From IMG/VR virus record IMGVR_UViG_3300029319_000482, positions 1 to 24,739 of that record: a stretch of 24,739 bases of DNA, one strand, 5' to 3'. Origin of the DNA: a virus. Under the pieces are notes generated by a model, which saw only the letters and a program-made list of their open reading frames with translations, did no database searches and had not been told where the DNA came from. Each line of letters begins with the position of its first letter. The stretch's first letter is position 1. Both the position numbers and the translations under genes were made by a program. Positions 1,962-19,800 of the stretch are shown here, in pieces.

Positions 1962-1995
1962 TTGTTATTTAGAGTGAAAATTATTATATATAGGG
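1962..1995 (+). promoter_or_regulatory. Promoter in front of structured RNA
   Basis: TTGTTA (1962-1967), a 17-base spacer, TATATA (1985-1990), then AGGGAGAC. The sigma70-like spacing is ideal. The TATAGGGAGA at the start site also matches the initiation end of T7-class single-subunit RNA polymerase promoters, although the upstream half of a T7 promoter is not well matched. Either reading puts +1 at about 1993, where the structured RNA begins. Confidence 0.55.
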
Positions 1996-2176
1996 AGACA
2001 GCCTCTGTACGGCAAAACTGAACTGATTAGTGAAACATGGTATCAGTAGGAGTTGGGATGCTCCTCGAATTTTGGCAAGGATACAAAAGACACTCACAGC
2101 CCCCACAATGAAGATCGATGAGATTGCTCTATGGGCTAGGTAGGAACTACTAATGTTTTGCTCTATAGAGGCTGTT
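1993..2176 (+). ncRNA. Candidate multibranched structured RNA of about 180 nt
   Basis: The ends pair perfectly: ACAGCCTCT (1998-2006) with AGAGGCTGT (2167-2175). Internal helices fit inside: CAAAA 2013-2017 with TTTTG 2070-2074; ACTGAT 2022-2027 with ATCAGT 2042-2047; AGGAG 2048-2052 with CTCCT 2061-2065, directly stacked on the previous one; AGCCC 2098-2102 with GGGCT 2133-2137, holding CAAT/ATTG; and GTAG 2140-2143 with CTAC 2147-2150. TTGCTCTAT occurs twice (2124-2132, 2158-2166). No start-to-stop gene explains the region. It sits between a promoter and the first small gene (2209), so it may be a stable RNA, a long structured leader or a riboswitch. I do not recognise the family. Confidence 0.6.
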
Positions 2177-3033: not shown

Positions 3034-4230
3034 ATGCTTAAAAATAAAATAAATTTAGCTTATGAAAAATATGATTATTCAAAAAAAGAAATAGCTGAAC
3101 ATACCAAGATTATTAAATCTATGGTTAGAAAATGCATGAACCATTTAAAGAAAAAAGAATATGAATTAGACATCACTAAATATGATGTTGATAAGGCAGT
3201 AGCTGTAACTAAAATTATTAACACTAAAAGTGCCGGTGCAACTAATGCATGCAGAAATAAAATTCAAATTAATCTTAGTTATTGGCAACACCATAACGAA
3301 AAGCATTTTCATAAAGAATATGACAGCTTTAATAATGATCCTCATATTGGTGGCAGACAATGCCTCAACTTAGATCATGCTTATTTAGTTAGTGTTAGTC
3401 ATGAGGTTGCCCATCATGTGCAATATGCAAAGGCAAAATATATCAAAAGATTTAGAGGCAATTATCGAAAGCCTCATGGAGATTGTTTCAAAGCAATCTA
3501 CAGATATTTAAGAAGAGATTTAATAAATCCTATCATTGATAAGGATCTATTGGATGACAACCAACAAACTGCAACATTAAAAACCAAGGAGGTACTAATG
3601 CAGAAAAACAAAACTTTGATATCAGATGATATCGTTAAACAAATCGCTGAACAAGAGCAACAGCATAATGTTTTAAAGGGATCTAATAAGCAAAACTCAT
3701 CTGAGATGAGTGCTATTAGATTAGATCAATATGCTACAGCGATGATCCCAATTAATCAGATTGCAAGAACTGATACCGGCAATATTTCAGAGGATGCAAC
3801 CAATGAATTATTGACCACGTTCCAAGTTCGATGCGACATGACAAAAGGTCAAGCTGATCTTTTTAAACGTAACTGTGTCTTGTTTACTAACAAGCATGAC
3901 TTACCAAAAAGTAATTTGACCAAGACTTACATCATGGATCTATTTAAAAAGTTGGATATCAAATCTCAAGCAAGTTTGATTAATCACAACAAGGGCGATG
4001 ATGTTAAGTCTCCATTGGATACAATCATTGATAAGTTGGTAGGTTTAACAACCAAGACCGGAAAGCAAAGGGATGGTCTGATCATGACAAAAAAAGAGTT
4101 GGAAGACTTTGAGATCAGATTAAAGAATAGATTTGAGATTGCTGATAAAGGTCGCAATGCTGTTAAGGATGCAGAGACAGAGCAAAAAGTTATCGATGAT
4201 GTAACTGATGCTCTTCTTGATGCATCATGA
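3034..4230 (+). CDS. SprT-like zinc metallopeptidase with C-terminal extension
   Basis: 398 residues; ATG at 3034 with TTGGAG upstream. The first half (about 60-170) is SprT-like: a helical lead-in, NKIQINLSYW, then SVSHEVAHHVQ with the zinc-binding, catalytic HExxH, and a third candidate ligand in KPHGDCFKAIYRYL. SprT/Spartan-type proteases cleave proteins, including those crosslinked to DNA. The second half (about 189-398) is Lys/Asp-rich, helical and without a known fold, and may be a separate product because AAGGAGG precedes an in-frame ATG at 3598. It heads a group with the MoxR ATPase and the VWA/zincin protein. The protease call rests on motif spacing; substrate unknown. Confidence 0.65.
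   Translation: MLKNKINLAYEKYDYSKKEIAEHTKIIKSMVRKCMNHLKKKEYELDITKYDVDKAVAVTKIINTKSAGATNACRNKIQINLSYWQHHNEKHFHKEYDSFNNDPHIGGRQCLNLDHAYLVSVSHEVAHHVQYAKAKYIKRFRGNYRKPHGDCFKAIYRYLRRDLINPIIDKDLLDDNQQTATLKTKEVLMQKNKTLISDDIVKQIAEQEQQHNVLKGSNKQNSSEMSAIRLDQYATAMIPINQIARTDTGNISEDATNELLTTFQVRCDMTKGQADLFKRNCVLFTNKHDLPKSNLTKTYIMDLFKKLDIKSQASLINHNKGDDVKSPLDTIIDKLVGLTTKTGKQRDGLIMTKKELEDFEIRLKNRFEIADKGRNAVKDAETEQKVIDDVTDALLDAS
3598..4230 (+). CDS. Possible internal in-frame product of the SprT-like gene
   Basis: An ATG at 3598, in frame at residue 189, is preceded by AAGGAGG (3586-3592) with 5 bases between. This is the best ribosome binding site in the block, better than that of the full-length start. The 210-residue product would begin MQKNKTLISDDIVKQIAEQE and lacks the protease domain. 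The sequence between the domains (about residues 172-188) looks like a linker. Either one gene makes two proteins or two ancestral genes have fused through loss of a stop. No motif in the product. Confidence 0.45.
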   Translation: MQKNKTLISDDIVKQIAEQEQQHNVLKGSNKQNSSEMSAIRLDQYATAMIPINQIARTDTGNISEDATNELLTTFQVRCDMTKGQADLFKRNCVLFTNKHDLPKSNLTKTYIMDLFKKLDIKSQASLINHNKGDDVKSPLDTIIDKLVGLTTKTGKQRDGLIMTKKELEDFEIRLKNRFEIADKGRNAVKDAETEQKVIDDVTDALLDAS

Positions 4231-4379: not shown

Positions 4380-4397
4380 ACATCGAATGTACAACTT

Positions 4398-4440
4398 TGC
4401 ACAGATCTTAATGGTCTGTGCATGATTGTCCATCCGGACA
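4398..4440 (+). other. Tandem hairpins before the MoxR gene
   Basis: TGCACAGATC (4398-4407) pairs with GGTCTGTGCA (4413-4422), 10 bp with one U-G. TGTCC (4427-4431) pairs with GGACA (4436-4440). No T-run follows, so these look like processing or stability structures rather than terminators. A TTTAATCAAAA leader like that of the 2209 and 2614 genes follows. Confidence 0.5.
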
Positions 4441-4479
4441 GCCATGAAAATGGTTTAATCAAAAATAAGGAGTATTGAT

Positions 4480-5627: not shown

Positions 5628-6845
5628 ATGCAAGATTTAAAATTAGAAGATAAGTTCTCAAAGATAAGAATACAATTACTTTGGGATAGAGATGATAAAG
5701 GTCATGCCTTTTGGGGCATCATGTTAGCTAAAATGAAAATTATTGAGAATAATAAATTTGATACTTGTGCAACTGATGGCAGAGACATTTTTTATAATCG
5801 TCAATATTGTGAAAGCCTATCATTCGAGCATTTAAAAGGTGTTATTGTTCACGAGGTAAAACATAGGGCATTGATGCATCATGTAAGGCAACAGCATAGA
5901 GACACGACAGCATGGAATGTAGCTTGTGATCTATCAGAAAATCCTATTATCATTGATGCCGGTTTACAGTTGCCGGATGGTGTATTGCTTGATCCAAAAT
6001 TTAAGGGATGGAGTGCAGAGAAAATTTATAATGTGATTTATCCTCAGATCCAACAGCACATGAAGAAAATGCAAATGTCTGCAAGTGGTGCAAGTGACGA
6101 TGGACAAAATGGTCAAGGCGAACAACCTAGTTGGTTACAGCCTCAATCATGGGGCAATATCGTTGATAATGTCTGCGACAAATTGTCTCCATCTGAGTTA
6201 AAAGAAGAAGAGGCTAGTGTTAGGGAAGATATTTTCCAAGCAGTACGTCAAGCTAAGGATCGAGGTACAGTTCCGGCAGAGATCAAGAAAATGATTGATA
6301 GAATGAAGAGGGCAGAAATAGATTGGGAAGATGTTATTCAACGTCATGTCCAAGGCGATGTTCCTCATAATTTTACCTATCGTAAGATCCACAGAAAATT
6401 TTATTATAATAATAATATCATTGCTCCAACTATTGATTATGTTGGCTGTGGTCATGTAGTTGTTGGTGTCGATAGTTCCGGATCTGTCACAGATAAAGAA
6501 CTACAATTATTTTTAGGTGGTCTTAATGCTTTGTCATTAGAACTTAAACCTAAATCTGTAACGATCATAACTTGCGACAGCAAAATTCAAAATGTCTATA
6601 AGTTTGAGCAAGGCGAAGAGATCACTAAAATTTCTGCTGATGGCAGAGGTGGAACATGTGTCATGCCGGTGTTCAATTACATTGAAGAACATGACTTGGA
6701 TGTAGACAGCTTTATCTATTTTACTGATATGGGAGTGCATGACTTTCCGGAAGAAGAAATGCCATATCCGGTTCTTTGGGTCAGCACAGATCTTGACAGC
6801 GATAAAGCACCAATTGGTCAAACTACATATCTAAAGGTGGCTTAG
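5628..6845 (+). CDS. Zincin plus VWA-domain partner of the MoxR ATPase (DUF2201-like)
   Basis: 405 residues; ATG at 5628 with AGGAG upstream. The N-terminal part has a metallopeptidase-like motif VIVHEVKHRALMHH (HExxH at residues 75-79) followed by WNVACDLSENPIIIDAGL, the signature of the DUF2201 N-terminal family. The middle (about 145-185) is a Gln/Gly-rich linker. The C-terminal domain starts VGVDSSGSV near 279, a MIDAS DxSxS site for metal-dependent binding, with later aspartates at CDS and FTDMG that suit a VWA fold. The family acts with MoxR ATPases, and the genes are adjacent here. Whether the zinc site still cuts protein is unknown. The only long spacer of the block follows, with a ribozyme. 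Confidence 0.8.
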   Translation: MQDLKLEDKFSKIRIQLLWDRDDKGHAFWGIMLAKMKIIENNKFDTCATDGRDIFYNRQYCESLSFEHLKGVIVHEVKHRALMHHVRQQHRDTTAWNVACDLSENPIIIDAGLQLPDGVLLDPKFKGWSAEKIYNVIYPQIQQHMKKMQMSASGASDDGQNGQGEQPSWLQPQSWGNIVDNVCDKLSPSELKEEEASVREDIFQAVRQAKDRGTVPAEIKKMIDRMKRAEIDWEDVIQRHVQGDVPHNFTYRKIHRKFYYNNNIIAPTIDYVGCGHVVVGVDSSGSVTDKELQLFLGGLNALSLELKPKSVTIITCDSKIQNVYKFEQGEEITKISADGRGGTCVMPVFNYIEEHDLDVDSFIYFTDMGVHDFPEEEMPYPVLWVSTDLDSDKAPIGQTTYLKVA

Positions 6846-6869
6846 TGCCACTTTTGGAGAATTTCGAGG

Positions 6870-6926
6870 CTCTAGGATGGTCACACAGAGGCGAAACGAT
6901 AGTCTCATGTGTGATTATACCTAGAG
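6870..6926 (+). ncRNA. Long three-part hairpin upstream of the ribozyme
   Basis: CTCTAGG (6870-6876) pairs with CCTAGAG (6920-6926); TCACACA (6881-6887) pairs with TGTGTGA (6908-6914); GAGGC (6888-6892) pairs with GTCTC (6902-6906, one G-U). All are nested on one axis, with a 9-nt apical loop GAAACGATA. The CACACA strand could instead pair with the UGUGUG loop of the hammerhead's stem I (6950-6955). No known family recognised. Confidence 0.6.
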
Positions 6927-6936
6927 ATTTTACTAT

Positions 6937-6989
6937 GCTGATATAGGAATGTGTGTTCCTACTGATGATCACGAAAGTGTGAAATCAGC
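6937..6989 (+). ncRNA. Type III hammerhead ribozyme
   Basis: All parts are in order. Stem III 5' strand GCTGAT (6937-6942); cleavage-site base A6943 (triplet AUA, a valid NUH); stem I TAGGAA (6944-6949), loop TGTGTG, TTCCTA (6956-6961); core CTGATGA (6962-6968); stem II CAC/GTG capped by a GAAA tetraloop (6970-6979, flanked by a U-U at 6969/6980); core GAA (6981-6983); stem III 3' strand ATCAGC (6984-6989), pairing perfectly and giving the expected A15.1-U16.1. The one departure is the U-U where a G-C usually closes stem II. Self-cleavage after 6943 would separate the VWA message from the 7020 gene and leave the ribozyme core on the downstream RNA. Confidence 0.88.
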
Positions 6990-7019
6990 TAACTACTATC
7001 ATTATTTATGGAGTAACTA

Positions 7020-8036
7020 ATGCAATATGATATAGAAAAAAATAATTGGGCAAAGATATCCCATTCCAAAGTTTTGCAAGAACAATATATTTTAAGAAGT
7101 TATTTAAACTTTCTTAATCATGGATGTAAAAGTTTTGGATTTAATCAAAATCAATTAGTCCAATTAAAAAAGAGTAGTGCCACTTATTTAGCTACAAGTG
7201 GTTCAGCTAATCCATTAACTGACGATGAGAAAAATTTCATCGAGATGTTTTCAAGAGGAACTAATCATTATCATAATCATGGATTAGAAAGTATCTCAAG
7301 CTGTGCTGAGGCTGTCAGACAAATTAGAAGAAAGCAAAAACATAAAAGTTCTATTTATTCTAATAAGGTGGATGGTCGAAAAGTTTTTAGAAAAGAACGT
7401 GAATACACTCATGGATTTTTTAATGGGCAATCAGTTCATAAAAAGTTTGAGACATTATCTCAATGCTTTGCACAGAAATGGTGGAGAGATAAGCAATCAA
7501 GAACCAATATTATTGTTAAGGTTGATGCACTCTCACAGAAAATTTCTTACGAGAAAGCTGAAAGAGGCAGAGCCGGTAATTGGAACTATAACAGCGATGA
7601 GAAAAATACATTAACTTTAACTCCATCGTGGTTTAAAAATGTATTCATGAAAGGCTTGGCAACCACAATATATAAAAGCAAAACAGCATTTATTGCTAAA
7701 GCTAATCCTATTGAGGTATCAGAAAAAATTAAGTCTCAAAATTTAAATGCTTATGTCGTTGACGTTGTTACTTGTTACGATGGCATTATTGACGTTGAGC
7801 ATGATGTTTACTGCTTGGCTTATGAAAGCAAACCATCAGAACAGCTTAAAGTTGAGAATGATTATGGTGGTAATGTGCCTATGCCACAAGGAGAGGCTCA
7901 TAAGATTGGTCTGACCAATAATATTATCTACACTCCGGCAGAGACAATTAATTCTGTGTCCTCTAATTTTCGTAGGGCAGAAAATGTCATGAGTGGCAGA
8001 GTTCAGAAAAATATACTTGATGCTATGGGAGTTTAA
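7020..8036 (+). CDS. Unknown protein downstream of the ribozyme
   Basis: 338 residues; ATG at 7020 with GGAG about 7 bases upstream, 30 bases after the ribozyme. Basic and soluble: an N-terminal helical region, an aromatic-rich KFETLSQCFAQKWWRDKQSR stretch, a beta-rich central part with SWFKNVFMKG, then VDVVTCYDGIIDVEHDVYCL. No Walker, zincin, HTH or transmembrane motif is visible. It lies in the same rightward block as the MoxR/VWA pair and may be a substrate or partner of that pair; this is guesswork from position. The next gene starts 1 base after its stop. Confidence 0.65.
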   Translation: MQYDIEKNNWAKISHSKVLQEQYILRSYLNFLNHGCKSFGFNQNQLVQLKKSSATYLATSGSANPLTDDEKNFIEMFSRGTNHYHNHGLESISSCAEAVRQIRRKQKHKSSIYSNKVDGRKVFRKEREYTHGFFNGQSVHKKFETLSQCFAQKWWRDKQSRTNIIVKVDALSQKISYEKAERGRAGNWNYNSDEKNTLTLTPSWFKNVFMKGLATTIYKSKTAFIAKANPIEVSEKIKSQNLNAYVVDVVTCYDGIIDVEHDVYCLAYESKPSEQLKVENDYGGNVPMPQGEAHKIGLTNNIIYTPAETINSVSSNFRRAENVMSGRVQKNILDAMGV

Positions 8037-16804: not shown

Positions 16805-19800
16805 TCATGCAGTCTTTCGTATGCCTACACTTCTCATGAGCTGAATACCTTTCTTCATAATTTCTTGTATTCTTTCTCTACGAAGTTTTATTAGTTTCTT
16901 TCTTGTTTCTTCCGGTATTCTTAAATTTCTTTCTAATTCTTTTATTTGTCTTAATAATCTGTTTCTTGCATTGTCTAATGCTTTGAATCTGCCAAATATT
17001 CTGACCTCATCATCGTATCTAGCCATTAGCTTCTGCATACTTTCTCTGTCACCTCTTCTTCTAGCTAAATCAAATCTAGAGAATATCGTGAATAGCTCTT
17101 TTCTCTTTTCTAAATAATTTTGTGTATCAACTCTATCAGACGGCTGTGCTATTACCTTCCTAACAAATGGTATTCTATTTTCTAAGTTACCCTCAAAGTC
17201 TCCTGTGGCTATTGCCGGTATAGTTTCAAATACTAAATTTGCACTTCTACCTACAAAAGCACCTGCACCACCAATGACATATTCGTAGAAATACTCAACA
17301 GTATCCGGAGAAACATCAATCAATCCACCCTCAACTTCATCTCCTCCGGTTAAATCACTAATAGTTTGGACTATAAACTTAGATAAAGCTCCGGTGTTAC
17401 TCCAATGAGTATAGGCATCAGGTGTAGTAGAAGAAGAGTACATAGGTGTTTCTTTATATATTGGATCTCCTCTGTAGTTTTTATTTATCATCATTTCTCC
17501 AAGAGGCTTTACTGATGTTGGCACGAGATAGGTTTCAAAGTTTTCAATAGCACCAAATGGGCTGAGAGTTTCCATAGTAGTGCCAAAAATACTGTTTGCC
17601 ATCTGACCAAATGTATACTCGCCTCGTGTGTAGCGACTTAATGCTCTTCCTAAGTTGAATGGCATATTTAATCCATAAGCTAGTGGTATTGTTATGAACT
17701 TCTCATCTGTTAGTCCAAATGTACCAAATACTAAATTATGCTCTAGCTTGTAATCACTAAGCTGATCATATGGATTTTGCTCATCTTCATCGTCTGGATC
17801 TCTAAAGAACGCCATAAGCTGATCTTGAAGCATTCCGTATACAATCAATCCACCTAAAAGTTTTCTAACTTTAGGCGACTTATAAGCCGCATTAAATATA
17901 GCCATACTGCCTTGTACAGATGCATTATAAAATAAATATAATGAGTTCATGAAAACTTTGTCTTCGCCACCTTTTGCAAAGTTTACTGTGACGTTTCTCG
18001 CTGCCTCGGCAGCTCTAGCATCAGTGAAACCTCTTTTCTTTAAATTAGTGAATGTAGCTACACGAACACCATTTTCAATTACAGTATTGTAGTCTTCTAA
18101 AAACTTTAACAGGCTTTTGCCTTTCTTTAAAAAGAAGTTGTTTCTTTGTACACCTAGAGATGTGGTGTCGCTTATGTCTTGTAACAGCTTATTAAGATTA
18201 TCCATTTGATCTTGAACTGTACCCATCATGTTTGTAGCGTTTTTACCACCGGCTCTAACAAACTTATTATACTCTTGTGACCAGTAGCTTGTATCATCTT
18301 GATTTCTTAAAACTTTTCTAATTCCATTAATAGCACCTGCAACATCTTTTACTATCTCTTTTGTAATTCCTTCTGCATCGTGTTGTTGTATATTTATAAG
18401 TGCTGTCTCTAAATCTTTTGCAAAGTTAGGAATAACAAACGCTGGGTTATAAGATGTATTAACATTTGATAAAAATCTATTTAACTTAGATAAAGCCTGA
18501 AATATAACATGGCTTGTTTTTGGATCGTAATGATGTTTAAACGCTCTGGCTAGGCTTTGTCTGTAAAAGTTTACGTAAACTTCTTCTCCATCAACTTTGA
18601 CTGTAAGCTGTAATGGATCTAAAGGCTCTTTTACATTTGTTACTTCACCAAAATTTTCTTTTAAATCTGTACGCAAATTATCGTTTGTAGCGAAACTTCC
18701 ATCACTCTGTTCTTCTTGGCCGCGCAGTAACCTGACTAAATCTTGCCCAACTTTATTTCTTTCAGATCTGTCAATAGCACGTTGATTTTGAGCAATCGTA
18801 GAAGCAAGAATATTCTCTGCATATTTAACACCTCTACCTCTGGCTTTAATATCCTCTTTACCTAAAGCTCCAAAGTAATTAACAGTTCTTCTTTTCTTAT
18901 TGAGCCTGTCATCATTAAACTCATCTGTAGAGTCTAAATCACCACGCAAAGGTACATAATGTTTAAATCTAGCTATATTATCATCGTATTCTTGCTTAGT
19001 TACCAATCCACTTTCGTATCTTATGTTGTTAGTGCTTGTTACAATTCTTTTTACACTTCTATCTACAGATCTAAATATTTCTTGATTTTTACTATCTAAT
19101 CCATCAAACCAGTCTAGTATTACATTGGCTTCTCCATTAGACATACCAGACCCTAGTCCTCTATTATATTCTTGAAGTATTTGCGCATTTCTTTCTTTAG
19201 CATGCATAGCATACAAATAAGCATCAACAAGAGCCATCTTTGGATCAACTGTTACATCTAATGCTCTTTTTACATATCCTTCGTCTTGTGCTTTAGCTGC
19301 TGCTTTAGCAGAGAGTTCTTGTAAATTATTTAATTGAGCTTCTGAAATATCAATATTCCTAATTTCTTCAATTAATGGTTTTACAATTGTTTCTTCTAAA
19401 TCAGATATTTTAGATCCAATAATACCTGTAGAGTTTACCTCTCTTAGGTAAGGATCCATAGCGTCTGCTATTGTGTAGCCTTTATCACGTAGCTCATCCA
19501 TCATAGCGCCTACAGGTTGAAAAGAATCTTGATATTTTTGTACTATTCTTTGTGCAGCCTCAGCTCTAGTTCTGCCAAACAATAATTTTTCTGGTATTAT
19601 TTTTAAACCTTTAGCAATTAAACCACTTAAATTATCGTATCTAATATTAAGTTGCGCGGTAGCTATGTCACGATCATTTTTTTCCTGTTGTCTTTGCTGT
19701 TCACTTTGTGGTGTTGCTCTTACTCTTGAGCGTCTAGTCTCAGGTTCTCCGGCAACATTTGCTCCACTTCCGATGTCATTTCGGGTAAACCTTCCGGGAA

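Follow-up and report, generated by a model that had tools for sequence, protein, structure and literature searches.

The locus

The window (the whole stretch of DNA analysed here, an IMG/VR virus record of 24,739 bases) belongs to a tailed phage carrying terminase, primase-helicase, exonuclease and ATPase genes; a very large ORF of 2558 residues with a GTG start (16805-24481, minus strand) extends nearly to the end of the record. The large terminase of the relatives is 53-55% identical to those of Pelagibacter phage HTVC027P and of phage 023Pt_psg01, which indicates a marine phage group distantly related to the SAR11 phages.

We consider here the interval that separates a divergent small-terminase gene, on the minus strand at 781-1338, from the first early gene of the plus strand (ORF 2209-2478), whose ribosome-binding site GGAG (2198-2201) and ATG (2209) are read from the sequence at 2197-2211. 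As the sequence-only reading had noticed, no gene uses the region; an overlapping coding frame was considered and dismissed, because inserts of 27 and 31 nt in relatives break it and no gene covers the interval. What lies there is a folded RNA of the plus strand, at 1996-2177, that we call R1. It is found just 3' of a promoter and just 5' of the ribosome-binding site of the first gene, the latter site being ~20-55 nt 3' of R1 in an unpaired A-rich linker.

The probable early promoter (1962-1990, plus strand) combines TTGTTA (1962-1967) and TATATA (1985-1990) with a spacing of 17 nt. It matches the consensus weakly (8 of 12 positions) and stays below the scanner threshold, so that it was unlisted; comparable -35/-10 pairs nevertheless recur just 5' of R1 in the relatives, all these calls being consensus-level only. 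The earlier claim that the RNA stands right behind a promoter is upheld by this recurrence, while the window match itself remains weak. The expected start falls a few bases before the closing helix P1, and with +1 expected at ~1996-1998 in the window, the distance of about 5 nt first proposed between +1 and the closing helix holds. In the clade of L012 and L014 the likely promoter is located further upstream, giving the RNA a 5' extension.

The gene that follows R1 is not constant: nine different N-terminal sequences are present among the relatives, i.e. at least nine different first genes, which ties R1 to the promoter rather than to a gene. Between R1 and the gene we found no terminator, no expression platform and no element masking the ribosome-binding site. 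The sequence-only reading had left the choice between a stable noncoding RNA and a riboswitch-like leader of the early genes. The structured noncoding leader is retained, on account of synteny, covariation and the covariance-model match described below; the riboswitch-like part is not. The leader position and the multibranched fold would suit a riboswitch, or a protein-binding leader through which the first early gene regulates itself, but with at least nine first genes, no terminator or platform, no sequestration of the ribosome-binding site and no Rfam match, R1 does not behave as a riboswitch class and such a gene-specific role is very unlikely.

Structure of R1 and its conservation

In the window and its relatives R1 is a multibranched RNA of 178-211 nt, delimited by a covariance model built without the window clade and by an alignment of 22 distinct relatives. 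It is closed by P1, whose strands 1997-2018 and 2155-2176 (plus strand) pair along 1997-2009/2164-2176 and 2011-2018/2155-2162, with compensatory changes at several pairs. The two 9-base arms first proposed for the closing helix, ACAGCCUCU (1998-2006) and AGAGGCUGU (2167-2175), are indeed paired, within a longer helix of 21 pairs interrupted by a single mismatch (2010/2163).

At least five further helices had been proposed inside the closing one; they lie at the places given them, and comparison sorts them. P3b (2048-2065) is a hairpin with the invariant loop UGGGA (2054-2058), where a comparison of the clades shows full compensation at three of the four pairs (CCUA/UAGG versus AGGA/UCCU). P4 joins AGCCC (2098-2102) and GGGCU (2133-2137) in an almost invariant helix (2098-2137) that is paired in 99% of the cells of the alignment; its 5' strand belongs to the block CACAGCCCCCACAAU (2095-2109), which is the same in 22 of 22 sequences except at the first base. 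P5 (2113-2125), with the loop GAUGA, is paired in 100% of cells and compensated at three of four pairs. These three helices have comparative support, whereas P2 and P3a, thermodynamically disfavoured in the window, are weak there: the consensus P3a (2040-2044 with 2080-2084) competes with a hairpin of the window clade, ACUGAU/AUCAGU (2022-2027 with 2042-2047), present in the minimum free energy fold, and its pair probability is ~0.01. The same fold contains P6 (2139-2151, GGUAG/CUACU), a hairpin of the window clade only, which the other clades do not possess. A pairing of the UGGG of the P3b loop with CCCA (2102-2105) is possible from the sequence, both sides being invariant. More generally the loops and joining sequences of R1 are conserved beyond the needs of pairing.

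Could this fold be fortuitous in an AT-rich spacer? The single-sequence statistics alone are modest enough to raise the question: the fold of the window has an energy of -59.8 kcal/mol and a z of -3.3 against shuffled sequences (1 in 200), and 9-bp inverted repeats at the spacing of P1 are unremarkable, with 19 in the window against 16.8 in randomised sequence, though only 0.26 is expected by chance when at least five G/C are required. Such repeats being frequent by chance in this AT-rich sequence, GC-rich ones apart, the structure claim rests on the relatives. The window copy matches the covariance model built without its own clade at 57.4 bits (E 2.7e-15), and the copies of the window clade together reach 57-62 bits (E 1e-16 to 3e-15) with the model drawn from the larger set only. 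Standard pairs fill 96.8% of the pair cells in the 22 distinct sequences, although the alignment was fitted to the covariance model, so that pair counts lean towards it; sliding the structure by 1-3 columns lowers the pairing to 31-51%. Changes on both sides of a helix, the evidence called for by the sequence-only reading, kept the pairing at 15 pairs, against 8.6 in shuffles, of which one in 500 was as high, most of these double changes setting the window clade apart from the other copies, so that few evolutionary events stand behind the count. The diversity of R1 is indeed small, with essentially two deep lineages. P1, P3b, P4 and P5 are well supported by covariation.

The model match, the synteny and above all the compensatory changes refute a chance fold, to which we grant practically no probability. 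Judged from these sequence comparisons, R1 is a conserved structured RNA, and the folded RNA of ~180 nt noticed in the single sequence is real, the relatives being decisive through the covariance-model match and compensation.

Distribution of R1 and comparison with known RNAs

Scans with exact patterns, which more divergent copies could escape, revealed R1 in 34 other IMG/VR contigs: four close copies by a 16-base exact pattern, 29 true matches by a second pattern, and L009. Matches of the second pattern in L026 and L028, and others in L003, L006 and L146, are chance matches in other sequence. Wherever the contig extends far enough, R1 has the small-terminase gene on one side and the early operon on the other, and a model search of six full records found a single site in each, the matches on the second strand being the same site. 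The copies form two groups. One is the window clade (98% identical internally), whose R1 is much diverged (53-60%); the other is larger, and some of its members carry an insert of 27-31 nt. R1 is better conserved than the neighbouring genes in some pairs, e.g. L013 and L054, with 91% against 69-80% nucleotide identity.

Two strict patterns found no R1 in GTDB genomes, hence no host or prophage copy at that strictness. The covariance model did not detect it in 80 large-terminase relatives, and it is absent from the stretches examined of the pelagiphages HTVC027P, HTVC023P and 023Pt_psg01, one model match in HTVC023P being a chance hairpin. L069 carries in its early leader CCCCACAAUGAA (reverse strand, ~3578-3590 in plus coordinates), a stretch that the window R1 contains in identical form; homology is not supported by the model, and the match may be due to chance.

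No Rfam 15 family matches R1 at gathering score for the window, L018, L038, L014 or L013, and a permissive scan, extended to E 10, returned no credible match. The RNA had been called unrecognised, which is borne out; R1 appears to be an RNA family of marine viruses undescribed in the open-access literature. Two well-known RNAs invite comparison. The packaging pRNA of phi29 is a phage-encoded structured RNA of ~120-174 nt with paired ends; R1 too has paired ends and is coded near packaging genes, but its phages possess small and large terminase genes and it heads the early genes. The 6S RNA has a long closing stem and one long bubble hairpin; R1 is of similar size and also has a long closing stem, but its interior is multibranched. 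Neither corresponds to an Rfam match of R1.

Hammerheads in the same position

Hammerheads clustered around prophage genes have already been described (Perreault et al. 2011, PMC3088659), and the sister phages offer many of them. L063 belongs to the same group and retains the promoter with ~25 bases of R1; a different leader follows, and the type III hammerhead at its end directly precedes the ribosome-binding site. The leader of L066 is homologous to it (84% identity over 184 nt), and a two-sequence fold of leader and hammerhead displays nine doubly compensated pairs. L063 (5384-5620) and L066 (reverse strand, before the hammerhead) thus possess a common structured leader in the position of R1. 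L069 and L064 carry yet other leaders with hammerheads.

Hammerheads are also repeated further in the early region, in an intergenic cassette made of a GC hairpin, a type III hammerhead, GGAG and a start codon. It is found in L059 (4833-4883 and 5416-5466), L012 (2257-2307), L023, L030, L038, L043 and others, for a total of 20 distinct context-plus-ribozyme sequences. A strict descriptor gives one to three hammerheads per locus in most relatives and none in 14.8 Mb of shuffled sequence; the standard-core hammerhead of L038 (3911-3965) matches RF00008 with 36 bits (E 7e-7), below the gathering score of 48.5. Taken with R1, these cassettes suggest that early gene expression is organised largely by RNA structures.

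R1 resembles the RF00008 type III arrays in being placed just upstream of phage genes, in a slot that hammerheads hold in sister phages, but it is not one of them: the hammerhead core, in which CUGANGA and GAAA join three stems, is absent (no GAAA, and CUGAUGA is not kept in the window clade), RF00008 does not match, and the true hammerheads of the relatives lie elsewhere. Might it cleave itself as a ribozyme of a new kind, or serve as a processing element? The equivalent position, the direct replacement in L063 and the compact fold with invariant unpaired blocks would agree with it. At the opposite, no known ribozyme family matches even at E 10, and a fixed cleavage-site context is lacking, R1 being at variable distances from the ribosome-binding site. 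Such a ribozyme is possible, if unsupported, and we hold it for improbable.

Possible function of R1

R1 seems to be the leader RNA of the early operon, whichever gene comes first, and to act on the early transcript or on its polymerase, as it is independent of the following gene and has neither switch nor terminator after it. Synteny, covariation, the independent model match, at least nine first genes, the single copy and the lack of platform or terminator count for this reading, as do the higher conservation of R1 in some pairs and the leader with hammerhead that occupies its slot in L063, L066 and L069.

A possible model is the put RNA of HK022, which closely follows an early promoter, works without phage protein and does not require tethering (PMC9378689). 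Both are structured RNAs placed just behind a phage early promoter whatever gene comes next, the promoter at 1962-1990 and R1 from ~1996 in the window being similarly arranged in relatives. On the other hand put has ~70 nt and two stem-loops, while R1 has 178-211 nt, a closing helix and a multibranched interior. Put suppresses pausing and termination through the zinc-binding domain of the polymerase beta' subunit, an action that R1 might share. By size and shape R1 fails to be a put, and by analogy it may work like one without belonging to the class. Every early transcript would begin with R1 as its first ~180 nt; this RNA would fold while leaving RNA polymerase and, least certainly, might bind the transcribing polymerase in the manner of put and thereby allow read-through of the early operon and its intergenic hairpins. 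As put activity needs no tethering, such a role would also fit the sister phages, where the leader is presumably cut off by the hammerhead. Besides the much larger size of R1 and the lack of a sequence link with put, the large divergence of the window-clade copies (53-60%) and the survival of L063 without R1 speak against it. So do the few convincing plus-strand terminators of the early operon: those at 2490-2513 and 7223-7242 were flagged, and the scan total of 7 against 3.0 in shuffles is a modest excess. A put-like action is the explanation we favour, tentatively and by analogy.

Two close rivals of the put-like leader have to be weighed. In the first, the early transcript would release R1 as a stable noncoding RNA that acts in trans on the host machinery early in infection. 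Since no terminator follows R1, a discrete RNA of ~180 nt would require processing; RNase III could cut P1, whose predicted 21 pairs with one mismatch are long enough, and in sister phages the hammerheads that follow the leaders would make the cut. Loops and joining sequences conserved in excess of pairing are in line with this reading, the lack of a conserved processing site 3' of R1 is not, and we regard it as a serious but minority possibility. In the second, R1 would be a 5' stabiliser and insulator: its paired 5' end would resist pyrophosphohydrolase and 5'-end-dependent nucleases and the context of the ribosome-binding site would be kept constant, a task that the 5'-OH ends left by hammerheads would perform for other genes and clades. 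In the window, as in several relatives, P1 begins at the expected +1 or a few nt from it, the linker that leads to the ribosome-binding site is similar, and in L063 a hammerhead leader replaces R1. But conservation of the inner helices and loops goes far past what pairing of the 5' end requires, and the 5' extension of the L012/L014 clade would move P1 away from the end; this explanation seems to us slightly less probable than action in trans.

A bolder proposal, which we consider rather unlikely, goes beyond the put-like leader: R1 would represent a novel RNA class, either catalytic or polymerase-modifying, exchanged with hammerhead-terminated leaders, and a whole viral family would run its early operon by RNA alone, with no dedicated antitermination or processing protein.

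Other folded RNAs in the window

A second strongly folded and conserved RNA is observed at 6832-6990 (z -5.8 over 6770-7000), flanked by a gene that ends at 6845 and another at 7020. It is unreported by Rfam and, in some of the relatives, shares bases with a short reading frame. At its end stands a hammerhead-like motif (6938-6988), and the relatives show three compensated versions of the stem II of this motif. At 2490-2600 and 4380-4470, early intergenic positions where relatives have hammerheads, there are also hairpins and small branched folds.
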